Program-made: the position numbers and the translations under genes
From: Eubacterium sp.
GTDB lineage: Bacteria; Bacillota; Clostridia; Peptostreptococcales; Anaerovoracaceae
Direction: 5' to 3'
Assembly (NCBI GenBank): GCA_021769965.1
Contig: JAETRU010000013.1
Span: 1 to 62,889, forward strand
DNA length: 62,889 nt
Notes under the pieces: model-generated
What the model saw: the letters and a program-made list of their open reading frames with translations, nothing else
What the model was told of the DNA's origin: nothing
The model's database searches: none
Part shown: in pieces, positions 16,347 through 32,268 of the stretch
How the letters are laid out: every line of letters begins with the position of its first letter
Numbering within the stretch: position 1 is the first letter of the stretch

Positions 16347-17825
16347 TTATTTCTCTATGCCGGCAATTCTCTTGGCGAGTTCTTTCTTGCCCTGAATATT
16401 TCCCTGTCTGCCGATCATGATCCTCTGGGCCTGCGGCGAACCGGCGCCATGGAGGGATTCTGTACGATAGCCTACAGCGGAAGATCCCAGACAGATATTC
16501 TCTAAAAAGCGCAGGATACGCATTCTGTCTTCGGTAGAAACCTCCGGTCTTCCCGCGAAATACTTATTGCAGATCTCTCCGATGGTCTCGCCGTTTCTGC
16601 CCGCTACCGTATCAGAATTAAAATCCTTTTCTGACGGCATCGTAACCATCAGTCCTCCCGCAATGTCCTCCGCCAGTCTGACGATCTCATACGGGAACCG
16701 GGTCACGTTCTGCTTGCAGACGTTAGCCAGCAGCAGGTCGATCTGGTAGTTCCCCGCTTTTGTCTGCTGGCCCTGGCTGGAACAGGCTATGCCGCAGCAA
16801 TACAGGGTCTCATTAAGATGAGTCATCTCAATGAGCTTATCCTTTACAGCAGAGGCCTTTTCAGCGCCGTTGTATTCTGCCGCCAGCGCCGCCGCGCCGA
16901 TGACCACGTCGCCTACGCCGACTTTGCAGCCGCCGTAGCTCTGTCTGTGATATCCTGCGAACCGTTCTACCATCATGCCGGCAAAGTCATATTCTCCTGC
17001 CATAAACACATACTCATTGGGAATGAATACGTGATCAAATACGACCAGTGCCTCCTGGCCTCCAAACTGCTTGTTGCCCAGATCCACATCCGCGCCGTCT
17101 TCCAGCTTTCTGGTGTCACAGGACTGTCTTCCGTAGATCATGAAAAGTCCTTCCGCGTCACTCGGGCAGGCAAAGGAAACCGCGTAATCCGCATCGCCTT
17201 CCTTCATTGCTATCGTCGGCATGATAATATGCCAGTGAGAGTTGATAGAGCCGGTCTGATGCGCTTTGGCGCCGCATACGACGATACCGTCCTCCCGGCG
17301 CTCTACGATATGTACATAAAGATCCGGATCCGCCTGCTCATGAGGCGCTTTTGCGCGGTCTCCTTTCGGATCGGTCATCGCGCCGTCGACCACCAGATCC
17401 TCCTCCTGAACCATTTCCAGGAATTTAAGAAAGCGCTGATTGTAGTCGGTTCCGTATTTTTCATCAATTTCATACGTGGTGGAATACACCGCGTTAAACG
17501 CGTCCATACCTACACAGCGCTGAAAACATGAAGCTGTCTTCTGGCCCAGAAGGCGCTGCATCTTCACCTTCTTGATCAGGTCATCTGTAGACTGATGGAG
17601 ATGGGTAAAACGGTTAACGCGTTTTCCGGTAATACTGGATCTTGCCGTCATCAGATCTTCGTATTCCGGCTGCTGCGCCAGCTCATAGGTCATCGCCACG
17701 CAGTTGATAGACGGCCGGATGATAGGATGATCCACCCAGTTATCGATCTTTTCTCCAAACATATAAACTCTTGTATTCAATTTACGCAGGCTTTCAATAT
17801 ATTCAGCCCCTGTCATCAGTGACAT
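16347..17825 (-). CDS. abfD: 4-hydroxybutyryl-CoA dehydratase/vinylacetyl-CoA isomerase
   Basis: A 492-residue FAD and [4Fe-4S] enzyme that, in characterised members, dehydrates 4-hydroxybutyryl-CoA to crotonyl-CoA by a ketyl-radical mechanism. The cluster ligands are all seen: C100 and C104 in CFQRCVG, and His and Cys in GYHRQSYGGCKVG. Length and motif layout match the clostridial enzyme closely. Start MSLMTGAEY has AAAGGAGG upstream. It is the third gene of the sigma-54 controlled cyclase operon, 59 bases after the dehydrogenase. The neighbours suggest a physiological substrate that may be a substituted 4-hydroxyacyl-CoA rather than 4-hydroxybutyryl-CoA itself, but that is inference. Confidence 0.93.
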   Translation of the reverse strand: MSLMTGAEYIESLRKLNTRVYMFGEKIDNWVDHPIIRPSINCVAMTYELAQQPEYEDLMTARSSITGKRVNRFTHLHQSTDDLIKKVKMQRLLGQKTASCFQRCVGMDAFNAVYSTTYEIDEKYGTDYNQRFLKFLEMVQEEDLVVDGAMTDPKGDRAKAPHEQADPDLYVHIVERREDGIVVCGAKAHQTGSINSHWHIIMPTIAMKEGDADYAVSFACPSDAEGLFMIYGRQSCDTRKLEDGADVDLGNKQFGGQEALVVFDHVFIPNEYVFMAGEYDFAGMMVERFAGYHRQSYGGCKVGVGDVVIGAAALAAEYNGAEKASAVKDKLIEMTHLNETLYCCGIACSSQGQQTKAGNYQIDLLLANVCKQNVTRFPYEIVRLAEDIAGGLMVTMPSEKDFNSDTVAGRNGETIGEICNKYFAGRPEVSTEDRMRILRFLENICLGSSAVGYRTESLHGAGSPQAQRIMIGRQGNIQGKKELAKRIAGIEK

Positions 17826-17884
17826 AGTATTTCCTCCTTTGCCGTCACAAACGCCGCACTCTGGCTTTTACAAACTCTAACTTT

Positions 17885-18829
17885 TTACAGTCTGTCCAGC
17901 GCTCTTGCGACCTTGATCAGACCTTCTATCAGGTCTTTCTGTGATTTTTCAATGTCCTGCCGGCTCCACTTCATAAAACCTTCGCCGCTCTTGAAACCCA
18001 GCTTGCCTTCATCCAGCTTTTCTTTCAGCAGCTTTGACGGCTCAGTACTGTTTTCAATGTGCGGGAACAGATACTCGTGAATATTATAGGTCAGGTCTGT
18101 GCCGCCTGCGTCGATGACTTCCATCGGCGCGCGCACGCCAAGACGCATGCCGAACCCGTATTTGATCGCTTTGTCCACGTCTTCCGCCGACGCGATGCCT
18201 CTTTCCACGATGGAGATCGCCTCTCTGAACAAAGCGTGCTGCATACGGTTTGCAAGAAATCCCGGTACATCTTTCTGCACGATGACCGGACACTTATTCG
18301 CCTTTTCAAGGAGATCATAAGTTTCTTTCACAACCGTCTCCGACACATATTTTGTCTTGATCACTTCGACAAGAGGCACCAGATATGCGGGATTCCAGAA
18401 ATGGGTACCGATGATTCTCTCTTTATGCACGGATTTCTCCGCGATCTCTGTCACGCTGATCACCGATGTATTGGTAGCCAGTATGGTTTCCGGCGGGCAG
18501 ATGGCGTCCAGTTTCGCAAAATAGTCCTGCTTGACAGCCAGATCCTCCACCACGCATTCAAAGATGATATCCGCGTCGCGCGCGCCTTCCTCCATGCTCT
18601 CAGTCAGACTGACCTGCGCCAGGATCTCCGGAATACGCGCGGGATCCAGCGCATCGTTTTCTGCCAGCACTTTCAGATTGGATTCCATGGTTTCCATAGG
18701 CTTTGACCTGGTTAAGTCATCATACATGCAGATCAGGGTCACGTCACAGCCAGCCATGGCAAAGGTCTGTCCGATCCCGGTTCCCATCGTTCCGGCACCC
18801 AGAACTGCTACCTTTTTCTTATCTTTCAT
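17885..18829 (-). CDS. 3-hydroxyacyl dehydrogenase, probably of a free hydroxy acid
   Basis: A 314-residue 3-hydroxyacyl-CoA dehydrogenase-fold protein: NAD site GAGTMGTGIG near residue 11, Glu/Asp after strand 2, catalytic His in THFWNPAYLVPLVEV and a following Asn. CoA-type enzymes normally read HFFNP followed by M-x-LVEV; the HFWNPAYLVPLVEV form is closer to L-carnitine and other free 3-hydroxyacid dehydrogenases. By position between a cyclase-family hydrolase and abfD, and with a BKACE in the regulon, I propose it oxidises a 3-hydroxy-5-oxo acid (compare HOHexDH of the phloroglucinol pathway). The CoA-linked alternative is still possible. Confidence 0.85.
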   Translation of the reverse strand: MKDKKKVAVLGAGTMGTGIGQTFAMAGCDVTLICMYDDLTRSKPMETMESNLKVLAENDALDPARIPEILAQVSLTESMEEGARDADIIFECVVEDLAVKQDYFAKLDAICPPETILATNTSVISVTEIAEKSVHKERIIGTHFWNPAYLVPLVEVIKTKYVSETVVKETYDLLEKANKCPVIVQKDVPGFLANRMQHALFREAISIVERGIASAEDVDKAIKYGFGMRLGVRAPMEVIDAGGTDLTYNIHEYLFPHIENSTEPSKLLKEKLDEGKLGFKSGEGFMKWSRQDIEKSQKDLIEGLIKVARALDRL

Positions 18830-18891
18830 TATTTGTCTCCTTTTTAGAAAGATAGGAAATCCTGCGAGCAGAATTTCCTATCCGTTTGTTT

Positions 18892-19809
18892 TTAATATAC
18901 GCCGTACGGATACTCTTTGTCCGGAACGTTTCTGTCAATTCTGTCAGACGGTACGAACGCAACGGCGCGGACGATGGTGCCGTCACCCATATACCAGCGA
19001 AGCGGGAACGCGCAGAACAGGAATCTCTGGTTCGTTACCTTGTCCAGATCTCCGCCAAGGTTTTCAATACCCATTACGTTGTTGGCCATCAGGATATCAT
19101 GGCATGGCTCCCATTCAGGGAAATCTTCCAGCGCCGGATGTCCGAACTGTTCCTCGTATTCTTCTACGATACGTGGAACATAAGGTCCCGGGCCGTGATC
19201 TGCAGCATAGGTGTACAGGATATGGTCAATAGCCTGCATGTCGAAACCCACGCCTCTTACATGATGCTCTACAAACCACTTCGCGCCGTCAATGGAAAGT
19301 CCCGGACTGTACGCGAAGTAATCGTCGTTTTCGCCCCAGCGTCTGTGTGTGCCTGTGTTGAGAAGGACCCAGTCGCCCTCTTTGATGCCGCCCGGAACCT
19401 TTTTCGCAGCCTCTTCAATATCCTCAACTGTGATCAGTTCCCATTTTCCCTTCGGGATATCCAGGCAGACTGCCTCGCCGAAGTAGTTCTGAATCGGAAG
19501 CTCATGGGTGAACGGGCTTTCCGGAATTACATGCGCCGGAGAATCGGCATGGGTGGAATTGTGCATATGAAAGTCATTGAAAGTCTGCAGAAGCCGGTAA
19601 TGCATCGGCATATGCTGCACTCTGTCGATATGGAAATCCCCATTGGACGGCCAGAGCGGATTACCTCTGCCGAACGGGTTTGAAAGGTCAAGCAGTTCGA
19701 AAGATCCGTCTCTGAACATATCAAAGATACTTCCGTCATAAGGTTTTTTCCAGTCATTTGTATGTGCGAAGCACTCTTCGCGGGTGTGTCTTACAGCGAT
19801 TTCTGACAT
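18892..19809 (-). CDS. Cyclase-family metal hydrolase (kynurenine formamidase-like)
   Basis: A 305-residue member of the cyclase superfamily (PF04199). The metal motif is HNSTHADSPAH near residue 82, matching H-x-G-T-H-x-D-x-P-x-H with Ser for Gly; a later HH (EHHVRGVGFD) and the GD in NTGTHRRWGEN region complete the fold. Longer than kynurenine formamidase (about 210), in the size range of dihydrophloroglucinol cyclohydrolase. It is first in the operon behind a perfect sigma-54 promoter. I infer ring or lactone hydrolysis as the operon's first step. Cytosolic, no signal peptide. Confidence 0.8.
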   Translation of the reverse strand: MSEIAVRHTREECFAHTNDWKKPYDGSIFDMFRDGSFELLDLSNPFGRGNPLWPSNGDFHIDRVQHMPMHYRLLQTFNDFHMHNSTHADSPAHVIPESPFTHELPIQNYFGEAVCLDIPKGKWELITVEDIEEAAKKVPGGIKEGDWVLLNTGTHRRWGENDDYFAYSPGLSIDGAKWFVEHHVRGVGFDMQAIDHILYTYAADHGPGPYVPRIVEEYEEQFGHPALEDFPEWEPCHDILMANNVMGIENLGGDLDKVTNQRFLFCAFPLRWYMGDGTIVRAVAFVPSDRIDRNVPDKEYPYGVY

Positions 19810-19861
19810 GATAAGGTCTCCTTTTCATCTTATATTTCTGATTCTCGATGCTATATTACAT

Positions 19862-19877
19862 AGCAAGGCTCGTGCCA
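19862..19877 (-). promoter_or_regulatory. Sigma-54 promoter of the cyclase-dehydrogenase-abfD operon
   Basis: TGGCAC-GAGCC-TTGCT on the minus strand (19877-19862), a full match to the -24/-12 consensus, 53 bases upstream of the cyclase start. Confidence 0.88.
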
Positions 19878-19960
19878 AAGTTTTAACAGCTGGCCAAAAA
19901 CTTTCACATCCCCTGGAATCACTCAATCTCTGTCAAAAGGCGTCAGCCCGGCGTTTCTTC

Positions 19961-20012
19961 GTTGCAAGACTTTTTCTGTTGCAGCGCGGCACTGGCGTTG
20001 CAGAGGAACAAC
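19961..20012. promoter_or_regulatory. Enhancer-like GTTGCA repeats for the cyclase operon
   Basis: Three GTTGCA copies at 19961, 19978 and 19997 (spacing 17 and 19), the last two followed after six bases by GGCAC and ACAAC, like the palindromes at 24944 and 30989. They lie 85-135 bases upstream of the sigma-54 box, the normal range for activator sites. The rest of 19810-20128 holds a weak -10 for the CFA synthase gene. Confidence 0.65.
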
Positions 20013-20128
20013 AAGTCAATCGCTAAATTTAAATTCTGCTTCATTCACAAAAACGACAAGTTCCAATGTTATAATTCATGGAATTAAGTGGAATAATCCA
20101 AAGTGTGAAATGTATCAGGAGGTAAAAA

Positions 20129-21292
20129 ATGCTAGAAGAAAATGTCATGATACAATTTTTGAGAAAATTTGATGCTGTTCCCTTCAATGTAAAACTGGAA
20201 GGAAAATCGTATCAGATCGGGGATGGTAATCCTGCGTTCACCGTGAAATTCCATAAGATGATACCTTTAAACGAACTTCTCACCCGTACATCCCTTGCGC
20301 TGGGAGAGGCCTATATGGACGGCAATCTGGAAGTGGAAGGCGATCTCTACGAAGCTCTGGACCTTTTCATGGGACAGATGGGCAAATTCTCCACCGACCA
20401 GAACGCGCTGAAAAAGCTGATCTTTACATCCATGTCCAGGAAGAATCAGGAAAAAGAGGTTCAAAGCCACTACGACATCGGCAATGACTTCTATAAGCTG
20501 TGGCTGGACGAGACCATGAGCTATTCCTGCGGTTACTTCAAAAGTGAGGATGACAGCCTGTATCAGGCCCAGGTCAACAAGGTAGACTATATTCTGAAAA
20601 AGCTCTGTCTGAAGGAAGGCATGAACCTGCTGGACATCGGCTGCGGCTGGGGTTTCCTTTTGATTGAAGCCGCGAAAAAGTACGGCATCCACGGCCTCGG
20701 CATCACATTGAGCCGGGAGCAGCACGACGAGTTCAAGCGCCGCATCGAGGCGGAAGGCCTGACAGATCAGCTGGAAGTCAGGCTGATGGACTACCGTGAT
20801 CTGGAAAAGACCGACCTGCAGTTTGACCGCATCGTCAGCGTAGGTATGGTCGAACACGTAGGCCGCGGCAATTATCAGCAGTTCATCGACTGCGCCGCCC
20901 ATGTGCTGAAGCCGGGCGGCCTGTTCCTGCTCCACTTCATCAGCGCCCTGAAGGAGCATCCAGGCGATCCGTGGATCAAAAAATACATCTTTCCCGGCGG
21001 TGTCGTGCCGAGCCTGCGGGAAATGCTGACCTGTATGGCGGAAGCCGACTTCCACACCCTGGATATCGAAAACCTGCGCAACCACTACAACCGCACCCTG
21101 CTGTGCTGGGAGCGCAGCTTCCGCGAGCACGCGGGCGAAGTGCGCCAGATGTTCGATGAACGGTTCGTCCGCATGTGGGACATGTACCTGTCCTCCTGCG
21201 CAGCCACCTTCCACAACGGCATCATCGACATCCATCAGATCCTGATGTCAAAGGGCGTCAACAACGACCTGCCAATGGTGCGGTGGTATTAA
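20129..21292 (+). CDS. cfa: Cyclopropane-fatty-acid-phospholipid synthase
   Basis: A 387-residue SAM-dependent lipid methyltransferase that adds a methylene across unsaturated acyl chains in membrane phospholipids. SAM motif LLDIGCGWGFLLIEAAKKYG near residue 167; QSHYDIGNDFYKLWLD and the bicarbonate-site residues in MSYSCGYF and the C-terminal region are present. The N-terminal lipid-binding domain (1-110) is intact. AGGAGG is six bases before the ATG. It is the only plus-strand gene in this part apart from the regulator and lies between two sigma-54 units without clear functional link. Confidence 0.93.
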   Translation: MLEENVMIQFLRKFDAVPFNVKLEGKSYQIGDGNPAFTVKFHKMIPLNELLTRTSLALGEAYMDGNLEVEGDLYEALDLFMGQMGKFSTDQNALKKLIFTSMSRKNQEKEVQSHYDIGNDFYKLWLDETMSYSCGYFKSEDDSLYQAQVNKVDYILKKLCLKEGMNLLDIGCGWGFLLIEAAKKYGIHGLGITLSREQHDEFKRRIEAEGLTDQLEVRLMDYRDLEKTDLQFDRIVSVGMVEHVGRGNYQQFIDCAAHVLKPGGLFLLHFISALKEHPGDPWIKKYIFPGGVVPSLREMLTCMAEADFHTLDIENLRNHYNRTLLCWERSFREHAGEVRQMFDERFVRMWDMYLSSCAATFHNGIIDIHQILMSKGVNNDLPMVRWY

Positions 21293-21307
21293 CGCTTTCA
21301 TAAAAGA

Positions 21308-21386: not shown

Positions 21387-23048
21387 CTATTCATTCACAG
21401 TACCGGTTTCATCTCCAAGGTAGGTAATCACATTTTCCTCTGTCAGGAGCATATAGGGGTCGTCACCTATGCCTATTCCGTTGAACGGTATATAGTGCGT
21501 TTCAGCAGCGATCTGCGCATAAGTATTTCCTTCGAAAACATGAGAATATTTTTCGCTGTACTCGCCGATATGTACGAGAGCGCCTGTCGCGACAGCAAAG
21601 ATATTATTTCGGACGATCAGGTTTTCCTGTGCGCAGGGGCCTCCCTGCAGAACCATTGCATTACAATATTCATTTTCCCAGTCTGTGCTGAAAAAATTAT
21701 TGACACCGCTGTCTAGTACAATATTATCTTCAATTAAAATATCTTTGAAAATATGATTTTTGTTTACTTCCATATCCCAGTTACAGAGCAGGATCCCCTG
21801 CGTCGTTCTCTCGATCAGATTTCCGGAAACGATATTATTGCTCATGCTTTCGCAGCCATCAAAGGTCTCTAACGCGATCCCTTCCTGAAAGGCATCATGC
21901 ACATAGTTATCCCGGATCGTATAATTACTTCCGGCAAAACTCATAGCGCCGCCATTTCTGCCAAAGAGACCTCCATTTAACTGAATGCGTGTATCTCCTT
22001 CTTCTGCTCCTGTTGCATAAGAGATTACATTACCGCCCATCCAGCCAACCTCGCAGTTTTGTACTACGCCATTGCAGGCTTCCTTGATTCCGTTAAATCC
22101 ACTGCAGAATGTCATGCTGGAGTATTTGATACAAAGGTTATCGTATGTTTGGTAATCAGACATCCCATCACAGAAAGCAAATGGTTCAATGAATTCAATA
22201 TCAGAATAGAGCTCTCCCGGATTTCCTGCATCACAGCGGAAATACAGCGGTCCTTTAGTAAATACTTCTTCCCCTTTTTCCTCATCCCAACTGCGGAAAA
22301 GACGCTCTCCCAGGTTTTCTGTATTCTTATCAGGATATTGGAGCGCAGGAAAACACCATCCATCGGACAAAAATTTTGTTACATCATAATCTTCTCCCGT
22401 CAACTGCTGATGGGCATCATCCATTTGAAGATATTTTTTGCCGTTCCAATAAGCAACATCTCGATAGACGACTTCTTCTTCATTCAATACGATCGTAGCA
22501 ACCTCGGTGATATCACGATAAAATTTCCAGATCTTTTTGCCGCTTTCATCAGAGTAGTATAATTTCCATTTTTCTGCACCTGCCCCATTTTCTTCACTGC
22601 CATAAAATGCCGGCTTCGCGCCTTCACCATAAGCAGACAGTGTGATCCCCTGCGTCCCAAGGATATTCCAGGGCAATTCTACCGCGCGCCAGATACTGCC
22701 GCGTTCAAAGAAAATGGCGTCGCCATAGGAAAGTTCAATGTTCCAAAAAGGCTCTAAGGTTGCAAAAGCCGTTTCCGGGCTGAGACCATCGTTACTGTCA
22801 TCTCCCTTGTTGGAAACATAATACGCCCTGCCACAGTAGCTTTCCCCCATGACGTATTCGTCTGCTTTTACAATTGCAGCAGGGCTGTTCAAGATCGACT
22901 GTTTTCGTTCTTCGGCTGTATTGCGAATCGTTTCCATTTTTTCATCTTTTTCATCTGAAATGCCGTCAGAGGCTTTCGCACAGCCTGATAATAAACACAA
23001 CACCATAACAGAACATAGGAGAACACTGATCAATCGTTTCAAATTCAT
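21387..23048 (-). CDS. Secreted lipoprotein with right-handed beta-helix
   Basis: A 553-residue protein with a signal peptide and lipobox LLSGC (Cys 22 or 23), so it is anchored on the outside of the membrane. After a linker, YYVSNKGDDSNDGLSPETAFATL marks the start of a pectate-lyase-like parallel beta-helix; repeats such as NYTIRDNYVHDAFQEGIALE and NNIVSGNLIERTTQGILL follow (residues about 340-520). The family binds or cleaves polysaccharides. No catalytic triad of a named lyase is evident. It could feed the uronate operon 10 kb away, but this is speculative. Confidence 0.8.
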   Translation of the reverse strand: MNLKRLISVLLCSVMVLCLLSGCAKASDGISDEKDEKMETIRNTAEERKQSILNSPAAIVKADEYVMGESYCGRAYYVSNKGDDSNDGLSPETAFATLEPFWNIELSYGDAIFFERGSIWRAVELPWNILGTQGITLSAYGEGAKPAFYGSEENGAGAEKWKLYYSDESGKKIWKFYRDITEVATIVLNEEEVVYRDVAYWNGKKYLQMDDAHQQLTGEDYDVTKFLSDGWCFPALQYPDKNTENLGERLFRSWDEEKGEEVFTKGPLYFRCDAGNPGELYSDIEFIEPFAFCDGMSDYQTYDNLCIKYSSMTFCSGFNGIKEACNGVVQNCEVGWMGGNVISYATGAEEGDTRIQLNGGLFGRNGGAMSFAGSNYTIRDNYVHDAFQEGIALETFDGCESMSNNIVSGNLIERTTQGILLCNWDMEVNKNHIFKDILIEDNIVLDSGVNNFFSTDWENEYCNAMVLQGGPCAQENLIVRNNIFAVATGALVHIGEYSEKYSHVFEGNTYAQIAAETHYIPFNGIGIGDDPYMLLTEENVITYLGDETGTVNE

Positions 23049-23221: not shown

Positions 23222-24073
23222 TTATTTTCCCAGACCCAGGATCTCTCTGGCTTCTTCCGGCGTGGCGACAGTCTTGCCCATCTCCTCTACAAGGCGCTTG
23301 ACACGGGCTACGAACTGTTCATTAGATTCCGCCTTCTGACCTGCGTTGTAGTAGACGTTGTCCTCAAGGCCTACGCGGATGTTTCCGCCCATGGCCAGGG
23401 CAGAAAGCAGGATCTCGTTGGCGCCTTTTCCGATGCCGAAAGCGCTCCAGGTACAGTTCTCCGGCAGATGATTCACAAGGTAGAGCAGGTTTTCCGTCGT
23501 CGCCTCCATGCCGCCCGGCGCGCCGAGACACAGCTGGAAGTGAGCAGGTTCCTGGAGGATGCCCTTTTTGATGTAGTATTTCGCCGTGTTCAGCATGCCC
23601 ATATCAAAGATCTCGATCTCCGGCTTCACCTTTGCCGCGATCATCTCTTTGCCGCAAAGCTCCAGGAATCCCGGCTCGTTCATAAACACTACAGAGTTGA
23701 GCCAGTTCATGGTTCCCGCATCAAAGGAAGCCATGTCCGGCTTTAATTCCTTGAACGGGCGGATTCTTTCTTCCCAGGAAAATCCCTGTCCACCTGAGGA
23801 TGTCAGATTGATGAGCACCGGACAGCCGGATGCTCTAAGCAGCCTGACGGTCTCTTCAAATTTATCAAAACGCATGCTTGCCTTGTCCTCGTCGTCGCGG
23901 ACGTGGATGTGCGCCACAGCAGCGCCTGCTTCATAGCAGGCAATAGCGGATTTTACGATCTCCTCCGGCTGAGTCGGCAGGTTGGCATTGTCAGCCTTTG
24001 TTGTAACCGCGCCCGTCAGAGCAGCGGATACGATGACTTTCTTCTTATCGTTCATTCTTCTGGTTTCTAACAT
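23222..24073 (-). CDS. Beta-keto acid cleavage enzyme (BKACE, DUF849)
   Basis: A 283-residue TIM-barrel enzyme. Zn ligands HIHVRD (His-x-His, about residue 54) and the GLEDNVYY segment near the C-terminus match BKACE enzymes, which react a beta-keto acid with acetyl-CoA to give acetoacetate and a new acyl-CoA. Known members act on 3-keto-5-aminohexanoate, dehydrocarnitine and triacetate (3,5-dioxohexanoate). With the cyclase and hydroxyacid dehydrogenase of the same regulon, a triacetate-type substrate is the best guess. Start MLETRR at 24073 has AAGGAG upstream and is four bases from the larC stop, so the two genes are coupled. Confidence 0.88.
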   Translation of the reverse strand: MLETRRMNDKKKVIVSAALTGAVTTKADNANLPTQPEEIVKSAIACYEAGAAVAHIHVRDDEDKASMRFDKFEETVRLLRASGCPVLINLTSSGGQGFSWEERIRPFKELKPDMASFDAGTMNWLNSVVFMNEPGFLELCGKEMIAAKVKPEIEIFDMGMLNTAKYYIKKGILQEPAHFQLCLGAPGGMEATTENLLYLVNHLPENCTWSAFGIGKGANEILLSALAMGGNIRVGLEDNVYYNAGQKAESNEQFVARVKRLVEEMGKTVATPEEAREILGLGK

Positions 24074-24865: not shown

Positions 24866-24881
24866 AGCAAAGATTGTGCCA
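24866..24881 (-). promoter_or_regulatory. Sigma-54 promoter of larC-BKACE
   Basis: TGGCAC-AATCT-TTGCT on the minus strand (24881-24866), a full -24/-12 match 28 bases before the larC start codon. Confidence 0.88.
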
Positions 24882-24923: not shown

Positions 24924-24959
24924 GTTGCATGACGCAAAATAGCGTTGCAGACAGGCAAC
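24924..24959. promoter_or_regulatory. Activator sites shared by larC and the regulator gene
   Basis: GTTGC-AGACAG-GCAAC (24944-24959) is a perfect inverted repeat; GTTGCATGACGCAA (24924-24937) is a near copy with a five-base spacer. They lie about 45-80 bases above the larC sigma-54 box and just above the regulator's own promoter. Confidence 0.7.
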
Positions 24960-24965
24960 AAAAGC

Positions 24966-24994: not shown

Positions 24995-25019
24995 AGTGAC
25001 TATACGGGAGGTACACACC

Positions 25020-26546
25020 ATGGATCAGGTTTTGGCAATACAGAAGGTAAAGGAAAAAATCAGAAAAGTACTGGATGACGGCAGCTATGACAGCGGCGAA
25101 AAGATGGCATCCTTTCTCAGAGAGATCGACAACGATCTGGAGGTCTTTCTGGCTCAGGGCATCGATTTCAAGATCGTGGTCGACGCGCTGGACGACAGCA
25201 TCTTTATTACCGACAAAGACGGCGTCTGTCTCTACGTCAACCCGGCCCACCAGCGCAACACCACCATTCTGCCCGAAGAAGTCATCGGCCGCAGAGTATC
25301 CGATATCGTGGAAGACGGCACGCTGTTTACCGGCGGCGCCACCCTGGATGTGCTTAAAACGCAGAAAAAAGTATTTCGTCTTTCTACCGTGCAGAAAACC
25401 AGTCCGCCCAGTGTCGGCTATGCTGTAGGCGTGCCGATCTTTGATCAGAACGGAAGTCTTCACCAGGTGGTCGTCAGCAGCCGGCCGATTCTGACCCTGC
25501 AATCCCTGCAGGAAGATTTCGGAAAATTTCTCGCTGAAGCAAACGCGCTGGATAAAAGCCGGGAGAATGTCCGGATCCTGGAGAGTACCGAAAACTCCAA
25601 AAGACTGGTCGGCTCTTCTTATTCGCTGCAGAAAGTCTGGAATACAATAAAGATGGCAGCACCTACTGACGCGACTGTGCTGATCACCGGTGAGTCCGGC
25701 GTGGGAAAAGAGGTAGTAGCCGATGAGATCTACCGTCTTTCCAGCCGCAGTGACAAGACCTTCGTCAAGGTCAATTGCGCTTCCATCCCCGCAAATCTTC
25801 TGGAAAGCGAACTGTTCGGTTATGAGAAGGGAGCTTTTTCCGGCGCCAGTTCCTCCGGAAAGCAGGGACTCTTTGAGATGGCAAACGGCGGCACGCTGCT
25901 TCTTGATGAAATCGGAGATATGTCCATGGATCTGCAGGTCAAGCTGCTGCGGGCCATTCAGAATAAAGAGATCACCCGGGTCGGCGGCACGAAGCCGATC
26001 AAGCTGGACATCCGTATCATCGCGGCTACCAACAGCGATCTGAAACGAAAAATCGCAGAAGGTGCCTTCCGACAGGATCTGTATTACCGGCTCAATGTCA
26101 TTCCGATCCACATCCCGCCGCTTCGTGAGCGGCTCAATGACCTGGATGACCTGTGCCGCCACTTTGTGAAGTACTTTACAGAAAAACACGGACGGCCGTT
26201 TACGCTGACCGATGATCAGCTTGCGATCATGAAGCAGTATACCTGGCCGGGCAATATCCGCGAACTGGAAAACGTCATCGAATACCTGACCATCTGCGCT
26301 TCCGGCACGAAGGAAGTCGCCGATGAGATGCTGCGGGGTCTTCTGGATATCTCTCAGGGAGACGAAACCGTTACCAGCACGGGAACACTGTCCCAGTCCA
26401 TGGAAAACTACGAAAAAAGCCTGATCGAGTCCGTGCTGAGAGATTCAAGCAGTCTCAGAGACGCAGGGGCAAAGCTGGGCGTCAACGCTTCTACCATATC
26501 CCGAAAGATCAAGCAGTACGGTATTGATTATCCGGGAGCGAAATAA
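25020..26546 (+). CDS. Sigma-54-dependent transcriptional activator with PAS domain
   Basis: A 508-residue enhancer-binding protein. Order: helical N-terminus (1-50), PAS sensor (about 52-170, ALDDSIFITDKDGVCLYVNPA), AAA+ domain with Walker A GESGVGKE, the sigma-54 contact loop GAFSGA (Ser in place of the usual Thr), Walker B GTLLLDEIGD and the R-finger segment, then a Fis/TyrR-type helix-turn-helix (ASTISRKIKQYG). There is no receiver domain, so it should sense a ligand directly. Start at 25020 has GGGAGG eight bases upstream. Four sigma-54 promoters surround it, so it is the likely master switch of the 16-32 kb regulon. Confidence 0.93.
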   Translation: MDQVLAIQKVKEKIRKVLDDGSYDSGEKMASFLREIDNDLEVFLAQGIDFKIVVDALDDSIFITDKDGVCLYVNPAHQRNTTILPEEVIGRRVSDIVEDGTLFTGGATLDVLKTQKKVFRLSTVQKTSPPSVGYAVGVPIFDQNGSLHQVVVSSRPILTLQSLQEDFGKFLAEANALDKSRENVRILESTENSKRLVGSSYSLQKVWNTIKMAAPTDATVLITGESGVGKEVVADEIYRLSSRSDKTFVKVNCASIPANLLESELFGYEKGAFSGASSSGKQGLFEMANGGTLLLDEIGDMSMDLQVKLLRAIQNKEITRVGGTKPIKLDIRIIAATNSDLKRKIAEGAFRQDLYYRLNVIPIHIPPLRERLNDLDDLCRHFVKYFTEKHGRPFTLTDDQLAIMKQYTWPGNIRELENVIEYLTICASGTKEVADEMLRGLLDISQGDETVTSTGTLSQSMENYEKSLIESVLRDSSSLRDAGAKLGVNASTISRKIKQYGIDYPGAK

Positions 26547-26633: not shown

Positions 26634-27812
26634 CTATACCATCTCAATGATGACAGCCGTGCCCATGCCGCCGCCGGCGCAAAGTGTCGCAAGGCCGTAC
26701 TTTTGCTTTCTCTTCATCAGTTCATACATACAGGTGATCACCAGACGGGAACCGGTAGCGCCTACAGGATGCCCCAGAGAAATCCCGCTGCCGTTGACGT
26801 TAAGTTTTTCATCAGGAATTCCCAGCGTTTTCTGACAGGCCAGGCACTGCGCCGCGAAAGCCTCGTTGATCTCGAAGAGGTCGATATCGTCTATGGTAAG
26901 TCCCGCTTTCGCCAGTGCCTTCTTTGATGCGCTGATCGGTCCGATTCCCATCAGCTCAGGCGCAACCCCTGTAGTTGCTACCGCTTTAATTCTTGCCAAA
27001 ATCGGAGCACCAAGCTCCTTCGCCTTATCTTCCTCCATGAGGATTACACCGGAAGCCGCATCATTCATGCCAGAAGCATTGCCGGCTGTTACTCTGCCGT
27101 CTTCCTTGAAAGTCGGCTTCAGCTTTGCCAGCTTTTCCAAACTGGCATCGCGCCGCGGATATTCGTCTGTGTCGATGATGGTATCACCCTTTTTGCCTTT
27201 TACGATGATCGGAATGATTTCATCTTTAAATTTGCCCGCATCGATAGCGGCCACGGCTCTCTGCTGAGAGCGGAGAGAATAGGCGTCCATCTGCTCTCTG
27301 GTTACATCGTATTCATCGGCTACATTCTCTGCCGTAATGCCCATAGCCGGACCTACACCGAGATTGGTCAGAGAATCCCACATGGAATCCCGCAGCTCCA
27401 TATGACCGTATTTCTGTCCATAACGAGCATTAAATACCATATGAGGCGCTGTACTCATACTGTCAGCTCCGCCAGCCATAATGCAGTCTGCTTCTCCTGC
27501 TTTAATCTGGTAGTAGCCGAACTGAATCGATGACATGGAAGATGTACAGTTTCTGTGAATGGTAATGCCGGGAACTGAATCAGGAAGTCCCGCTTTTACT
27601 GCTGCCACTCTGGCAAGATTGTTCTCTTTATAGGTTCTCTGATAATTGCATCCCCAGATAACGTCTTCAATCATAGCCGGATTGATACCTGCTCTTTCGA
27701 CAAGATTCTGCATGACCGGAATGGAAAGATCCAGGGAAGTTAAAGTTTTAAACTGGCCGCCGATAGTACCGATTGGCGTTCTGCAGGCCGCTGTAATCAC
27801 TACGTTTCTCAT
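26634..27812 (-). CDS. Acetyl-CoA acetyltransferase (thiolase)
   Basis: About 392 residues, the normal thiolase length from the ATG at 27812. Active-site Cys in HRNCTSSMSS (usual form N-x-x-C-x-S-G), the NEAFA loop, GHPVGATGSR (His) and the second Cys in CAGGGMG are all present. It interconverts two acetyl-CoA and acetoacetyl-CoA or cleaves longer 3-ketoacyl-CoA. The NCTSSMSS variant around the nucleophile is not the commonest, so chain length is uncertain. It is the last gene of the DUF362-small-MFS-thiolase operon and could consume acetoacetyl-CoA formed by the BKACE step. Confidence 0.93.
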   Translation of the reverse strand: MRNVVITAACRTPIGTIGGQFKTLTSLDLSIPVMQNLVERAGINPAMIEDVIWGCNYQRTYKENNLARVAAVKAGLPDSVPGITIHRNCTSSMSSIQFGYYQIKAGEADCIMAGGADSMSTAPHMVFNARYGQKYGHMELRDSMWDSLTNLGVGPAMGITAENVADEYDVTREQMDAYSLRSQQRAVAAIDAGKFKDEIIPIIVKGKKGDTIIDTDEYPRRDASLEKLAKLKPTFKEDGRVTAGNASGMNDAASGVILMEEDKAKELGAPILARIKAVATTGVAPELMGIGPISASKKALAKAGLTIDDIDLFEINEAFAAQCLACQKTLGIPDEKLNVNGSGISLGHPVGATGSRLVITCMYELMKRKQKYGLATLCAGGGMGTAVIIEMV

Positions 27813-27934
27813 GTGAAAATCTACCTTTCTGTTCATATATGAGGGCAGGCCGCTTCACAGCGGAAGCAGCCTGTCCAGATTTCAAATATTGATATCAATA
27901 TATCCAATAAAGCGCTGAGCTTTTCTAAAGCCTC

Positions 27935-29254
27935 TTATGCGTTCAATTCTTCTTCCTTCTTATAGTCCAGGTTGTACTTCTTCGTGTCGAAACAATTAAT
28001 CAATACAATATTGACAACCAGCAGGCCAATGAATACCAGGTAAGCGCCTCTCAGGGATCCTGTCAGTTCCAGCGCCTTTGCGTTGATGTAGTAGTTCATC
28101 ATCAATACAATCTGCATAACCGGGAAGTAGATGGAGTATACAACGTCAAAACTCTGTCTTCCGAATACGGATGCAGGAAGTGAAGTCATGAAGTTGGCAG
28201 CGGCACCGATGGCTACGCCTACCATTGCTACGCAGATATATCCGCCCAACATACTGTTCAGGACGTAATTCACAGCCAGCGCTGCACAGTACCATACCAG
28301 GAACATGAGTACCGCCTTCTTAACACCCAGCTTCTGATCCAGCCAGCCGAATCCATAAGATCCGCAGACACCGACAACGGCACAGACTGTCATTAACCAT
28401 ACAGCCTTTTCAGGCGCAAAACCGAGTTCGATGTTTCTTGGAACCATCTGGCTCATTACACCGGTGGTGACCAGCTGGTTGATGCCGATGATGATGGCAA
28501 CGAACCACATCTCTTTGGTCTTTAAGAGCTTAGCGACTGTCCATCTTGGTTCGCCGTTTTCTGCCTCCTGTGCATATTCAGCTTCATATACTTCCTTTGA
28601 CACATTGTCAGGATACATGCCTCTTTCCTGCGGCGTGTTTCTTACAATGAAGTAAGCGATTACAGCGATAATAATCGCAGCGATGCCAGGCATCGTCATA
28701 CCTTTCGCGATGCCGAACGCGCCAATCAATCCGCTGATCAGAGGTACATAAAATGCAGAACCCAGATTGTGACCCATGGTGGTATATCCGTTTGCCAGAC
28801 CCTTTTTCTTCGGGAACCACTGTGTTACCAGATTGCCGCCGCCGATGTAAGCAGCGCCGTTGATAAATACTGTAACCAGGGTTAAACCGATGAAATATCC
28901 CGTGGTAGTCGTTGAATGTCCATAATAGATGTAGGAAGCGCCTGCTAAAGCAAGGCATACTGCAGAAAGCGCTCTTCCGCCAACCATGACCAGAATTCTT
29001 CCGATTACAAAGTACGCAACTACACCGATAAATCCGGCATACATCGCTAATTTGAGCAGCTGCGGTTTTAATTCTGCCGGATCTGCGCTGCCGCCGTTTG
29101 CATTAATCCACTGATCAATTACGATATTCTGCCCGTCGATAGAGAAACCGATCAGGAAGAAAAACATAATCATTGAGTAAAAGATGATCAGCCAGCCTTT
29201 ACCAAAGTTGGATTTGGTATTTTCAGACTGGAGTTTTGGTTTATTGTCAGCCAT
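27935..29254 (-). CDS. MFS transporter, OFA (oxalate/formate antiporter) family
   Basis: A 439-residue 12-segment transporter. The ISS: long first periplasmic loop after helix 1 (DGQNIVIDQWINANGG), the GGGNLVTQWFPKKKGLANG motif between helices 4 and 5 typical of the OFA group, and a cytosolic loop near residue 225. It should move a small organic anion, plausibly the substrate or an end product of the sigma-54 regulon. A perfect palindrome ATATTGATATCAATAT and a hairpin lie in the 120-base gap before the thiolase. Confidence 0.88.
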   Translation of the reverse strand: MADNKPKLQSENTKSNFGKGWLIIFYSMIMFFFLIGFSIDGQNIVIDQWINANGGSADPAELKPQLLKLAMYAGFIGVVAYFVIGRILVMVGGRALSAVCLALAGASYIYYGHSTTTTGYFIGLTLVTVFINGAAYIGGGNLVTQWFPKKKGLANGYTTMGHNLGSAFYVPLISGLIGAFGIAKGMTMPGIAAIIIAVIAYFIVRNTPQERGMYPDNVSKEVYEAEYAQEAENGEPRWTVAKLLKTKEMWFVAIIIGINQLVTTGVMSQMVPRNIELGFAPEKAVWLMTVCAVVGVCGSYGFGWLDQKLGVKKAVLMFLVWYCAALAVNYVLNSMLGGYICVAMVGVAIGAAANFMTSLPASVFGRQSFDVVYSIYFPVMQIVLMMNYYINAKALELTGSLRGAYLVFIGLLVVNIVLINCFDTKKYNLDYKKEEELNA

Positions 29255-29284
29255 TTGTAATTACCTCGTCTCTTATTATTTGGG

Positions 29285-29557
29285 TTATTGTTTTTCTTTC
29301 GCAAATCTTTCGTCCGCCGCTTTCATCACCATTTCGTCCCAGGTCTGAAATTCGGTGCTTTCAATGACGAAATTGTTGAAAACAGTTTCCGGATAAATCA
29401 TATATTCCCCGCCCCAGTTGCACATTACCGCGCTGGAGTAGCGAAAGTATTCAAAGCTCTCAAAGTTGGTATGCTTCTGCATGAATTCATCGGTAAAAAT
29501 GATATCTAGAATATCCCAGAATTCTTTACCAGCTTTTACTCTGATATAACCGTCCAT
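29285..29557 (-). CDS. Small protein coupled to the DUF362 gene
   Basis: A 90-residue soluble protein rich in aromatic residues (FESFEYFRYSS, GGEYMIYPETVFNNF) without a family I recognise. Its ATG overlaps the DUF362 stop (TAATG), so both are made together, probably as partners: a subunit or chaperone of the DUF362 protein. Three cysteine-poor stretches and one Cys (VMCNWGG) give no metal motif. Real by coupling and operon position. Confidence 0.65.
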   Translation of the reverse strand: MDGYIRVKAGKEFWDILDIIFTDEFMQKHTNFESFEYFRYSSAVMCNWGGEYMIYPETVFNNFVIESTEFQTWDEMVMKAADERFAKEKQ

Positions 29558-30849
29558 TATTTTGCCTCCGGATTTTCCTTTTTGTATTCTTCGAACTTAG
29601 CGAAAACGTAGTCGTGCCATACCTGCGCGTCTCTTGCCATGCATGGACGAATAATTTCATCCTCCTGATCCCCTGTTCCGTCGATGGTTTCATGTCTCTG
29701 AATGGTCAGGTACAGAGCCGGTTCATTGGGAGGGCATCCCAGAATGTGATATGCACCCGGATGCTGTTTCAGATATTTCTTAGTGCAGTTTCCGTGCAGT
29801 ACAATTTTCTCATCTGGAATATCATCCGGAATTTCATTGAGTCCGCCGATCACAACAGTCATACCTGCGTTTTCATCGTAAGCGTTTACTGCCTTCAGTT
29901 CTTCCATGTTGATGGCAAGAAGTGCCTGACAGCTGGAGCAGCCGCCCTTGCATCTTACATCGTATTCCGGCCATCTGGTGCTCATATCGCCGATGTACGG
30001 GATCCACATCTTCATAAAGGATTCCTCGATGGTGTTTCCGACGACTTCGATCTGATCCATATCATAATTGCCAAGACCGGTTTCCTCTGCAACCTTAAAA
30101 TAGTCTACGGCAGTAGTATCAATGCCGGTAACCTCGCAGGCAACACGGTCAATGGCTACAGGGTCTTTAGAACCCAAAATCATATGGGATTCGATTGGAA
30201 CCGGCATATGCGGGCTGTATCCTGATGCGGCGCGGTGCGCGTCCATAATATTTATATCCGCGCGGCATACAGACCAAACATCCATCATGGCCATGGTCAG
30301 ATTCTGTTTATGCATATCCATATGTACTTTGTCCTGTACAACGCCCTTGATATTCTTCAGAGCGCCGGAGAATACCATGGAAGCATGGGCTTTCAGAATC
30401 GGCAGATTGATCAGATGATCCGCCTCCAGCAAAAATCTAGGCAGCTTTACGGAATCGATATTGGAACGGAAACCGCGGACGGCTACCTTTACCAGATCTT
30501 TATCCCGCTTGATATCCATCAGCTCAACGCCTTCTTCTTCAGCAACAGCCTGGATTCCGCTTACTTTGAAGCATTCCATGGTATCACAGCCGATGGCAGC
30601 TGCCTCTGCTACGATAATTCTCTTCGGCTCGGCTTTCTTGACCTCACGAATGACAGCTCTTACTACCTCAGGGTTGGTGCATACAGAAGTTTCCGGCGGT
30701 TCAGCATGGCCGGCATTAGGTTTCAGAACGACAGTAGTACCTTTGCGGATCACGCTGGTAACGCCGCCCATCAGGTCAAAGACTTTTGTCACATTTGCCT
30801 GAATATCATCGCCCTTTGCGAGAGCAACTAATGATTTCCCTTTACTCAT
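29557..30849 (-). CDS. DUF362 protein with C-terminal cysteine motifs
   Basis: A 430-residue protein. Residues 1-300 are a DUF362 domain (VVLKPNAGHAEPPE, LPILKAHASMVFSGALKNIKG, KDPVAIDRVAC). The C-terminal third has RCKGGCSSCQ, HGNC, LGCPPNEPAL and RPCMAR: enough cysteines, in C-x3-C-x2-C and GCPP settings, for one or more Fe-S clusters. DUF362 proteins are mostly uncharacterised; some relate to cofactor or redox enzymes. First gene behind a perfect sigma-54 promoter, so central to the regulon. A ring reductase or cofactor-dependent isomerase role is possible but unproved. Confidence 0.8.
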   Translation of the reverse strand: MSKGKSLVALAKGDDIQANVTKVFDLMGGVTSVIRKGTTVVLKPNAGHAEPPETSVCTNPEVVRAVIREVKKAEPKRIIVAEAAAIGCDTMECFKVSGIQAVAEEEGVELMDIKRDKDLVKVAVRGFRSNIDSVKLPRFLLEADHLINLPILKAHASMVFSGALKNIKGVVQDKVHMDMHKQNLTMAMMDVWSVCRADINIMDAHRAASGYSPHMPVPIESHMILGSKDPVAIDRVACEVTGIDTTAVDYFKVAEETGLGNYDMDQIEVVGNTIEESFMKMWIPYIGDMSTRWPEYDVRCKGGCSSCQALLAINMEELKAVNAYDENAGMTVVIGGLNEIPDDIPDEKIVLHGNCTKKYLKQHPGAYHILGCPPNEPALYLTIQRHETIDGTGDQEDEIIRPCMARDAQVWHDYVFAKFEEYKKENPEAK

Positions 30850-30900
30850 TTCTTTCCTCCTTGAAAATTATAACGTATTTATAATGACACTCTTATCTAA

Positions 30901-30916
30901 AGCAAAAAGTGTGCCA
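30901..30916 (-). promoter_or_regulatory. Sigma-54 promoter of the DUF362 operon
   Basis: TGGCAC-ACTTT-TTGCT on the minus strand (30916-30901), a full match 52 bases before the DUF362 start. Confidence 0.88.
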
Positions 30917-30944
30917 AAGGAAAAAGGAGGTTTTTACGGGGAAT

Positions 30945-31004
30945 TTGTTATGGAAATAACAATTCTGTTGCGTCCGGGCGGCCAGTCCGTTGCAGCTACG
31001 CAAC
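30945..31004. promoter_or_regulatory. Activator sites of the DUF362 operon
   Basis: GTTGC-AGCTAC-GCAAC (30989-31004) is a perfect copy of the palindrome and includes the stop codon of the alcohol dehydrogenase gene. GTTGCGTCCGGGCGGC (30967) is a half-match and TTGTTAT-GGAA-ATAACAA (30945-30962) is another perfect inverted repeat. Confidence 0.65.
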
Positions 31005-32195
31005 GAATCGGATAAATTTTCTGTATATCTGCTCTATATCAAAGGCTGTCAGACCGGTAAGACCCCATCCGATAAACGGTCTGCCGTCTAACGTCTGCTC
31101 CGCAAGGGCCGCAAGGTCCAGTTTCTCTGTTTCCAGTTCCTGCGCAAGCCCCAGATCTTCAATAAATTTCCGCAGGGCGCGGATTCCTTTTTCTATGACA
31201 TCCTGCGTCTGCTCTTCTTTCACATCAAATACTTCCTGAAAGAACGCCGCAAACCGTTCCGACGCCTGATGACTGACATATTCGCACCACGCCGGCAGCA
31301 GCATGGCAAGGGCAGCTCCGTGAATAACGCCAAAAGACTCTGTGATCTGATGGCTCATCTCGTGGCAGCCAAAATCCCCGCCCGGCCCCAGCATATCATT
31401 GTGCGCGACCGAAGCCGCCAGCATCAGCTCACCGCGAAGCGCTTCATTTTCTGGATCCTCCAGCGTCTTCGGCAGCGTCTGGACGATCTCTTTCATAAGT
31501 GCCAGGGTCATGCGGTCCAGCAGGCTGCTCTGCCGGTTCAGATCAAAGTACCGCTCAAAGGCATGGGCAAAGATATCAAAGCCTCCGCTGGCCGTCTGAA
31601 ATCTGCTGACGGACAGCGTCAGCGCAGGATCCAGCAGGGCAAACTTCGGCTTGGACTGCTCAAAAGCTCTCGCGATTTTCTTTCCCGTCACGCTATCGCT
31701 GATCACTGACATAGCGTTGGATTCGCTGGCTGTCGCCGGCAGGGTCACGACCGCTCCCACCGGAAGAAACCGTTCCGGACAGTGTTCGGGATTCTGATAA
31801 AGTTCCATGATGTCGCCGTCAAAAAAAGCGCCTGCGGAAGCCGCCTTCGCCGAATCTATGACACTGCCTCCGCCTACAGCCAGTATGCCGTTTATACCCT
31901 CTTTGCGGATAACATCGACAGCCTGTCTGATATACGCGGCATCCGCATTGGGCCTCACGCCACCCAGTTTAAATACCGTGCAGCCTGCTGTCTGCAGATC
32001 CTCCTCAATCGTTTCGCCCAGGCTCTTCTGTCCATCCTGTCCACCTGCCTCAGCGCGGAAGATCCGCTCGCTGCCGTAAACCAGAAGCACCCTGCCTCCT
32101 TTTCCGACCTGTCGCGCCATCAGCGCGCCGGCTTTCCGCTCACATGCCTTGCCAAAATAGATCTCTGTAGGAATGCTGAAATGAAAATCGTACAT
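30996..32195 (-). CDS. Iron-containing alcohol dehydrogenase (BdhA/YqhD-like)
   Basis: About 399 residues from the ATG at 32195 (ACGGAGG upstream). N-terminal nucleotide domain with GGGSVIDSAKA, and metal ligands in DIFAHAFE (Asp-x-x-x-His), HEMSHQITESFG and IHGAALAMLLPAW (His). Such enzymes reduce aldehydes or oxidise primary alcohols with NAD(P)H. It has its own sigma-54 promoter (32253), so it belongs to the regulon; it could reduce an aldehyde intermediate or serve as a hydroxybutyrate-type dehydrogenase. Confidence 0.93.
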   Translation of the reverse strand: MYDFHFSIPTEIYFGKACERKAGALMARQVGKGGRVLLVYGSERIFRAEAGGQDGQKSLGETIEEDLQTAGCTVFKLGGVRPNADAAYIRQAVDVIRKEGINGILAVGGGSVIDSAKAASAGAFFDGDIMELYQNPEHCPERFLPVGAVVTLPATASESNAMSVISDSVTGKKIARAFEQSKPKFALLDPALTLSVSRFQTASGGFDIFAHAFERYFDLNRQSSLLDRMTLALMKEIVQTLPKTLEDPENEALRGELMLAASVAHNDMLGPGGDFGCHEMSHQITESFGVIHGAALAMLLPAWCEYVSHQASERFAAFFQEVFDVKEEQTQDVIEKGIRALRKFIEDLGLAQELETEKLDLAALAEQTLDGRPFIGWGLTGLTAFDIEQIYRKFIRFVA

Positions 32196-32252
32196 ATTCT
32201 TACCTCCGTATTGTATGATCGCTTGTAAATACTGTGATATGAAATAGTTAAA

Positions 32253-32268
32253 AGCAAGAAGTATGCCA
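32253..32268 (-). promoter_or_regulatory. Sigma-54 promoter of the alcohol dehydrogenase gene
   Basis: TGGCAT-ACTTC-TTGCT on the minus strand (32268-32253); one departure (T for C) from the -24 consensus. No GTTGC palindrome is seen upstream. Confidence 0.75.

Follow-up and report, generated by a model that had tools for sequence, protein, structure and literature searches.

A sigma-54 regulon in Eubacterium sp. that looks like an undescribed ring-cleavage fermentation and includes a candidate nickel-pincer enzyme

Phloroglucinol degradation in Clostridium scatologenes, which runs through PGR, DPGC, TfD and TAL (Zhou et al. 2023, PMC10470551), offers the closest comparison for a gene set on a 62,889-nucleotide stretch of Eubacterium sp. 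DNA (the window, which is one entire contig, JAETRU010000013.1, of a 3.0 Mb genome that is 97% complete). Between positions 16347 and 32268, as the original prediction had described, one plus-strand PAS-AAA+ activator stands among four minus-strand units: an iron-type alcohol dehydrogenase (Fe-ADH); a DUF362 protein with a 90-residue protein (sm90), an OFA-type transporter and a thiolase; larC1 with a beta-keto acid cleavage enzyme (BKACE); and a cyclase-family metallohydrolase with a 3-hydroxyacid dehydrogenase (HADH) and 4-hydroxybutyryl-CoA dehydratase (AbfD) (Table 1). The clostridial system shares with this set a clustered cyclase-family hydrolase, a dehydrogenase without CoA contacts, a BKACE, a thiolase, a transporter and a regulator, whereas the set lacks its short-chain dehydrogenase/reductase (SDR) and includes DUF362, sm90, lar genes, AbfD and Fe-ADH, which the clostridial system does not share. 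By the DUF362 locus, the nearest named relatives of the genome are Emergencia, which are gut bacteria.

The gene set looks like an undescribed way to ferment a ring-shaped compound. Neither a description of it nor a DUF362 nickel enzyme was found among the papers listed from the open-licence PMC literature (bioRxiv preprints being outside that scope), and the excerpted text of the Catenibacillus genome paper (PMC11170127) makes no mention of DUF362, nickel or resorcinol. Our reading, to which we assign a probability of about 0.5, is that the sigma-54 regulon ferments a six-carbon, probably polyphenol-derived ring anaerobically by way of DUF362–sm90, parallel to yet distinct from the phloroglucinol route. 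A more tentative proposal, with odds that fall short of even, is that DUF362 proteins with a C-terminal Cys set form a second nickel-pincer superfamily, in which DUF362–sm90 transfers a net hydride to an aromatic or cyclic polyol ring rather than racemising its substrate, and that they explain some of the cases in which a genome without LarA makes the cofactor. Such genomes, with larB, larC and larE but no larA, amount to ~15%, and the cofactor user in them is unknown (PMC11770544, PMC11796402). The locus supplies a candidate user with a small partner protein and places both in a regulon and a chemical context; if the proposal is true, the nickel cofactor of racemases and epimerases would extend to catabolism, and gut flavonoid degraders would have a second ring-cleavage route to butyrate.

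The AlphaFold2 model of the DUF362 protein (pLDDT 85, pTM 0.86) points to a structural relative of LarA that may be one of the missing users of the nickel-pincer cofactor. In a Foldseek search of the PDB with this model, all 18 chains matched at E ≤ 1e-3 were LarA-family nickel-pincer enzymes (best 1.1e-7). Profile–profile comparison of 91 DUF362 sequences (51 after filtering) with 14 LarA sequences gave an E-value of 8.7e-5 and a probability of 60, where none of ten control pairings exceeded 1.9; a narrower comparison of 16 with 8 sequences gave 0.0093 and 4.4. Both profile alignments place H155-x9-K165 on His174-x9-Lys184 of LarA, while H180 corresponds to His200 by spacing only (K+15 versus K+16). 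All 13 distant DUF362 proteins compared retain K43, N45, K153, H155, K165, N166, G169 and H180, and nine of the 13 retain C304, C307, C355 and C372. In LarA the cofactor is attached via a lysine, and His108 and His174 are catalytic, although LarAs with a single catalytic His exist (PMC12611868); DUF362 served as the outgroup in a LarA paper, both families belonging to Pfam clan CL0471 (PMC11770544). The DUF362 protein resembles LarA enzymes in fold, in the aligned His-x9-Lys register, in a possible downstream His placed by spacing and in lar synthesis genes near a third of the loci; it differs in having no PF09861/DUF2088 match (PF04015 alone matches at E ≤ 0.001), one of the two catalytic histidines, an extra C-terminal Cys set, the sm90 partner and a degradative context. 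The genome of the window encodes a second DUF362 protein (G000:C5:12438-13253, minus strand; a 380-residue frame with 175 bits to PF04015).

Of 197 genomes from the family to which the window genome belongs, 17 encode DUF362 orthologues (50–99% identity), the remaining matches being at most 34% identical; the neighbourhoods of up to 20 kb around the orthologues hold the same partners in shuffled order, as a conserved and mobile set. In a 299-genome phylum sample only the window's genome reaches the DUF362 subfamily level, with three others at 207–222 bits. We further compared 80 loci, the best 80 of 90 found by a genome scan of named records with DUF362 as the query; some are short, several pairs come from one genome, and genes were labelled by blastp. 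The sets compared overlap, several loci being the same contigs, so that the counts are not independent, and the incompleteness of metagenome-assembled genomes (MAGs) affects absences. Partners at the 80 loci were sm90 (61), HADH (60), thiolase (59), OFA (46), cyclase (39), BKACE (36), activator (33), Fe-ADH (30), LarC (22), AbfD (21), crotonase (16), CtfA (14), M24 (12), LarB (11), NifU-like (10), CsoR/RcnR-like (7), LarE (6), transhydroxylase (6), OYE (5) and a DPGC-type cyclase (1); LarA and PGR were found at none. The DUF362 step, being the query, is constant, and the ring opener appears exchangeable between a cyclase, a crotonase and an M24 metalloprotein, roles that we assign from context. 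Hosts include Emergencia timonensis, Catenibacillus scindens, Eubacterium ramulus, Flavonifractor plautii (two), Hornefia and Coprococcus catus, together with Clostridium thailandense, Fusibacter, termite Family XIII MAGs, Deltaproteobacteria, Actinobacteria and Lokiarchaeia.

Crotonase genes lie in 16 DUF362 clusters of the Flavonifractor/Intestinimonas type (L088-L091, L093-L102, L104 and L112), none of which contains AbfD and where a cyclase is represented only by a 50-residue cyclase-like fragment in L100; the fuller clusters of this type comprise OFA, DUF362, sm90, HADH, CtfAB, thiolase, crotonases and BKACE. An M24 gene immediately precedes DUF362 in L105, L109, L110, L120, L121, L124 and L125 (Deltaproteobacteria, Lokiarchaeia, Actinobacteria); its product, in the one case scanned, is weakly similar to DddP, PepQ and DoeA and under every cut-off.

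Context ties DUF362 to lar genes strongly, though not exclusively. At least one cofactor synthesis gene (larB, larC or larE) lies beside DUF362 in 26 of the 80 loci, 14 with LarC only and eight with two or more. LarB, full LarC and LarE, all above curated cut-offs, form one run in L081 with the cyclase, HADH, DUF362, sm90, thiolase, BKACE and AbfD, and the cluster of genome G195 likewise includes larB, larC and larE homologues. In the window, larC1 is a gene of nickel-pincer cofactor synthesis and stands within the set under its own sigma-54 box; its product has no LarC2 match. The window's genome carries a larE-larB-larC operon on another contig (L128:9068-11786) and no LarA. LarB scored over its cut-off in 16 of the 17 genomes with a DUF362 orthologue versus 101 of the 180 others (p=0.0012), and in 42 of 45 DUF362 genomes across phyla, at least five of which, judged by coordinates, are also in the 197-genome sample; 15 of the 45 are without LarA at E ≤ 1e-10, and all 15 have LarB. 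For DUF362 proteins that retain the C-terminal Cys set, 24 of 26 genomes have LarB versus 93 of 171 others (p=1e-4), the groups having been defined post hoc from residues inspected in matches down to the strength of L018-L030. Cofactor use by DUF362 as a whole was rejected as a rule: LarB is over its cut-off in 46 of 61 genomes with DUF362 of any kind versus 71 of 136 (p=0.0016), which leaves 15 without it. Among 14 control genomes, five have DUF362 and six have LarB over its cut-off, four being common to both. The larE-larB-larC operon of the window's genome is followed by an ABC transporter that by eye is peptide/nickel importer-like. Seven loci (L060:11138-11539, and L058, L064, L069, L074, L076 and L077) contain a gene for a His-rich CsoR/RcnR-family repressor, matched by RicR, RcnR and FrmR models, all under cut-off, and five of the seven have LarB; the repressor could be a nickel sensor.

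The small protein sm90 follows DUF362 closely across genomes. A profile of 41 sequences detects it in 17 of the 197 family genomes, precisely those with a DUF362 orthologue, and in none of the other 180; since its sequences were taken from DUF362 loci, what carries information is that sm90 is missing from the other genomes. Genome G164 has two extra weak copies. No Pfam or NCBIfam entry matches at E ≤ 0.001, and although the AlphaFold2 model is confident (pLDDT 93), a fold search returned no PDB match at E ≤ 1e-3. The single cysteine of the window protein is not conserved in the alignment. In seven of 16 loci showing sm90 it lies apart from DUF362 (five times beside HADH, twice beside the thiolase). 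This speaks for sm90 as a partner of the pathway enzymes and against a chance feature of a single operon. By blastp, sm90 was not found in the Deltaproteobacterial, Lokiarchaeal and Actinobacterial loci, where DUF362 proteins may act alone or differently.

The sigma-54 boxes are real, and the regulon is predicted from them. Five mismatch-free matches to TGGCAY-N5-TTGCW occur in the window against 0.24 expected, a number reached in none of 100 shuffles; with up to two mismatches there is no enrichment (14 found, 19.2 expected). Three perfect TGGCAC-N5-TTGCT boxes and one variant head the four units, in agreement with what had been proposed. Of the genes listed in that proposal, abfD, DUF362, larC, Fe-ADH and OFA are all there, with three amendments: the abfD product is close to 4-hydroxybutyryl-CoA dehydratase (1U8V), larC encodes the LarC1 half only, and sm90 had been omitted. 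That proposal had also not recognised the kinship of DUF362 with LarA, the part of larC in making the nickel-pincer cofactor, or the association of larB, larE and sm90 with the system. Among relatives, a box precedes 25 of 78 scorable DUF362 starts versus 2 of 461 unlabelled control ORFs; it is found at 19 of 33 starts with an activator in the locus and at 6 of 45 without. The activator of the window scores 376.6 bits against a PrdR-like model, under its cut-off of 795. Candidate activator sites are provided by the repeat GTTGC-N6-GCAAC, whose two mismatch-free copies in the whole window lie upstream of the larC and DUF362 boxes. Allowing up to two mismatches yields no enrichment in the window (23 found, 28.2 expected) and no copy within 300 bp upstream of the Fe-ADH box.

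From these elements we infer the following pathway, including its substrate, reactions and order of steps. The OFA transporter would import the substrate. DUF362 would carry a nickel-pincer nucleotide on K165, made by LarE, LarB and LarC with the help of the regulon's LarC1, and a C-terminal Fe–S site, through which the Cys set could feed electrons for a net reduction. Together with sm90, it would turn the ring by hydride transfer into a hydroxylated cyclic beta-diketone, which the cyclase would open by hydrolysis. The dehydrogenase would then oxidise the free 3-hydroxy acid, and BKACE would convert the 3-keto acid and acetyl-CoA to acetoacetate and a C4 acyl-CoA. Thiolase, with CtfAB where these stand beside it in some relatives, would lead on to acetyl-CoA, while Fe-ADH and 4-hydroxybutyryl-CoA dehydratase would take the C4 part to crotonyl-CoA and butyrate. 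Three observations lead us to propose that DUF362–sm90 prepares the ring before the ring opener acts: it is the element shared when the ring opener changes, in the window it seems to form an operon that includes the transporter, and in termite MAGs it lies beside pyrogallol hydroxytransferase and OYE-type reductases.

The gene set looks like a pathway parallel to the phloroglucinol route, and the parallel drawn earlier with clostridial phloroglucinol degradation held, on comparison with C. scatologenes, for the cyclase, free-acid dehydrogenase, BKACE and thiolase (PMC10470551). In an alignment with 4kug read by eye, HADH has Ala and Gly at the CoA-binding Lys56 and Asn221 and keeps the catalytic Ser117, His138 and Asn188, and Gly recurs at the Asn221 column in 72 of 74 homologues; because the CoA contacts, which TfD likewise lacks (PMC10470551), are replaced, the enzyme probably acts on a free acid. 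The missing SDR phloroglucinol reductase was also borne out: none of the 80 loci encodes a protein that reaches 45% identity to the PGR of E. ramulus, the search covering these loci and not the remainder of the window genome. As a whole the earlier interpretation is partly supported. Its claim of a probably different substrate meets its main rival in a second phloroglucinol pathway, where DUF362–sm90 would replace the SDR reductase, using another electron donor, and the cyclase, dehydrogenase and BKACE would perform the same three steps. We regard this as unlikely. An SDR–cyclase–HADH–BKACE cluster stands apart from the DUF362 cluster in each of E. ramulus, C. scindens and the termite Family XIII MAG G206, though the G206 SDR is merely 35% identical to that of E. 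ramulus; the latter scores 525 bits to 5g4k, presumably the solved phloroglucinol reductase, which the entry title does not say. The cyclases of these three clusters are 69–78% alike, and the window cyclase, at 34–35% to them, belongs to another clade than DPGC. BKACE has Val at the position of Kce Glu14, where the three phloroglucinol-cluster enzymes have Trp. A role for AbfD would also be left unfilled. The substrate or route is therefore probably different, given the separate clusters, the divergent cyclase and the BKACE Val. Other observations speak against that view: Trp also occurs in six DUF362-cluster BKACEs, and Val is found in the C. thailandense protein (L176, 415.6 of 430 bits) that comes closest of the BKACEs to the NCBIfam 3,5-dioxohexanoate model, so that this residue is not decisive. 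The actinobacterial L117 combines DUF362 with a transhydroxylase and a DPGC-clade cyclase (67–75% to the phloroglucinol-cluster ones) and has no PGR in the locus. L111 pairs DUF362 with an SDR 38% identical to that of E. ramulus. Phloroglucinol chemistry thus stays in play because some relatives join the set to pyrogallol hydroxytransferase, a Trp BKACE or a DPGC-clade cyclase. Pyrogallol hydroxytransferase, the enzyme of a gallate/pyrogallol route, lies beside DUF362 in termite-gut MAGs (the L114 protein scores 1220 bits to 4v4c), as do OYE-type reductases; L115 has a UbiX-type gene. The hydroxytransferase does not occur in the window and is missing at 74 of the 80 loci. As a test for TAL, model NF053538 proved useless, even the E. 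ramulus phloroglucinol-cluster BKACE lying far under its cut-off.

AbfD suggests a 4-hydroxybutyryl-CoA intermediate, one that phloroglucinol would not give. It is very similar to the dehydratase of 4-hydroxybutyrate/GABA fermentation (1U8V) and retains C100, C104, H293 and C300 at the [4Fe-4S] ligand positions, offset by one from the 1U8V numbers; AbfD is present in all 11 genomes searched, with three copies in the window's genome (G000) and one, inside the cluster, in C. scindens. It differs from that system in lying under a ring-cleavage regulon, with no adjoining succinate-semialdehyde genes seen by eye. Fe-ADH exceeds no curated cut-off (PRK15138, 199 of 645 bits; 4-hydroxybutyrate dehydrogenase model, 88.5 of 500). 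A use for every enzyme, including AbfD, the carboxylate-type transporter and the LarA-like fold, would be simplest in a non-aromatic hydroxy-acid or lactone fermentation, in which a lactone would be the target of the cyclase, DUF362 would act on a hydroxy acid by LarA-like racemisation or isomerisation, BKACE would convert 6-hydroxy-3-oxohexanoate directly to 4-hydroxybutyryl-CoA, and AbfD would dehydrate the latter. We rank this LarA-like isomerisation next after replacement of the phloroglucinol reductase and hold it to be rather doubtful, since relatives add pyrogallol hydroxytransferase (6/80), OYE-type reductases (5/80) and the UbiX-type gene, and the flavonoid degraders among the hosts point to phenolic rings (PMC10470551, PMC11170127). 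An amino-acid type fermentation related to lysine or GABA, with Kce and AbfD, is very improbable: the best model of BKACE is indeed lysine Kce (301 of 382 bits), and AbfD is close to 1U8V, which is named as a dehydratase/isomerase of gamma-aminobutyrate metabolism, but the Kce Glu that binds the 5-amino group is Val, inspection of the set by eye revealed no aminomutase, ammonia-lyase or transaminase, and a ring-opening-type hydrolase is conserved. The remaining alternative concerns DUF362 itself, which could be an ordinary Fe–S electron-transfer or scaffold protein, LarC1 and the lar genes serving another enzyme and nickel-pincer chemistry being unrelated to the pathway. Several observations weigh against a nickel-pincer role, and those on PF04015, the motif and G072 also favour this alternative. 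Foldseek TM-scores by query were only 0.32–0.40, which means a likeness of domains rather than of the whole protein, and the first catalytic His of LarA (His108) aligns with Asp or Cys. PF04015 is a family of unknown function, and five of the 13 distant proteins with H155, K165 and H180 belong to genomes that lack an over-cut-off LarB (G031, G036, G107, G143, G158), so that the motif is not diagnostic of the cofactor. No lar gene is seen at 54 of the 80 loci, some of them short. LarA is present in 30 of the 45 cross-phyla genomes, where lar genes could serve it, weak over-cut-off LarA-domain matches occur in two of the 17 DUF362 genomes (G054, G164), and LarB is in any case widespread across the family (117 of 197 genomes). 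The same-genus genome G072 has larEBC without this DUF362 cluster, and another cofactor user therefore exists; in such genomes this might be the second DUF362 protein. Against the ordinary Fe–S protein stand LarC1 under its own box within the set, LarB, LarC and LarE inside the cluster in several genomes whose loci lack LarA, a window genome without LarA, and solved folds that at E ≤ 1e-3 are all LarA. On balance we find this alternative improbable, and continue to infer nickel-pincer loading and an Fe–S site for DUF362.

Table 1. Coordinates of the gene set, its predicted control elements and interspersed features in the window.
Feature	Position	Strand	Notes
abfD, 4-hydroxybutyryl-CoA dehydratase, 492 aa	16347..17825	-	PF11794/PF03241; phmmer 1u8v 940 bits
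3-hydroxy(free)acid dehydrogenase (HADH), 3HCDH family, probable	17885..18829	-	CoA-contact residues replaced vs 4kug
Cyclase-family metallohydrolase, candidate ring opener, 305 aa	18892..19809	-	PF04199; HNSTHADSPAH motif
Sigma-54 -24/-12 box of cyclase-HADH-abfD	19862..19877	-	perfect TGGCAC-N5-TTGCT
GTTGC-N6-GCAAC repeat	19997..20012	.	1 mismatch; 135 bp upstream of cyclase box
cfa-like gene, interspersed	20129-21292		named by eye
Unrelated ORF, interspersed	21387-23048		named by eye
BKACE	23222..24073	-	PF05853; Kce 2y7d 242 bits
LarC1-only nickel insertion protein, 256 aa	24077..24847	-	TIGR00299 159 bits, cut-off 90
Sigma-54 box of larC1-BKACE	24866..24881	-	perfect TGGCAC-N5-TTGCT
GTTGC-N6-GCAAC repeat, candidate activator site	24944..24959	.	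0 mismatches; 78 bp upstream of larC box
PAS-AAA+ sigma-54 activator	25017..26546	+	Fis-type HTH, GAFSGA; PF00158, PF25601, PF18024, PAS
Thiolase	26634..27836	-	TIGR01930 466 bits, above cut-off
OFA-type MFS transporter	27935..29254	-	PF07690; SfMCT and OFA models under cut-offs
sm90, 90 aa, candidate DUF362 partner	29285..29557	-	no known family or fold
DUF362 protein, candidate nickel-pincer and Fe-S enzyme	29557..30849	-	PF04015; H155, K165, H180; C304, C307, C355, C372
Sigma-54 box of DUF362-sm90-OFA-thiolase	30901..30916	-	perfect TGGCAC-N5-TTGCT
GTTGC-N6-GCAAC repeat, candidate activator site	30989..31004	.	0 mismatches; 88 bp upstream of DUF362 box
Iron-type alcohol dehydrogenase (Fe-ADH)	30996..32195	-	best model PRK15138
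Variant sigma-54 box of Fe-ADH	32253..32268	-	TGGCATACTTCTTGCT
Fifth sigma-54-type box	51527-51542	-	TGGCATTGCCTTTGCT; ~460 bp upstream of LacI-like regulator gene; outside the 16347-32268 set

Isatin hydrolase and kynurenine formamidase are weak relatives of the window cyclase (best E 1.9e-7). A second cyclase subtype of 267–272 residues does without the N-terminal extension of the 305-residue form. Compared with L049, L052, L054, L069 and L077, the window cyclase is 96–99% identical in protein and 84–88% in DNA, the thiolases of these loci being 79–93% identical in protein, and the window-type cyclase would seem to be under unusually strong constraint. Next to the set, and with no sign of regulon membership, the genes at 32455-43078 resemble by eye hexuronate catabolism, with what look like altronate dehydratase, mannitol-type reductases, KDG kinase, KDPG aldolase and uronate isomerase.

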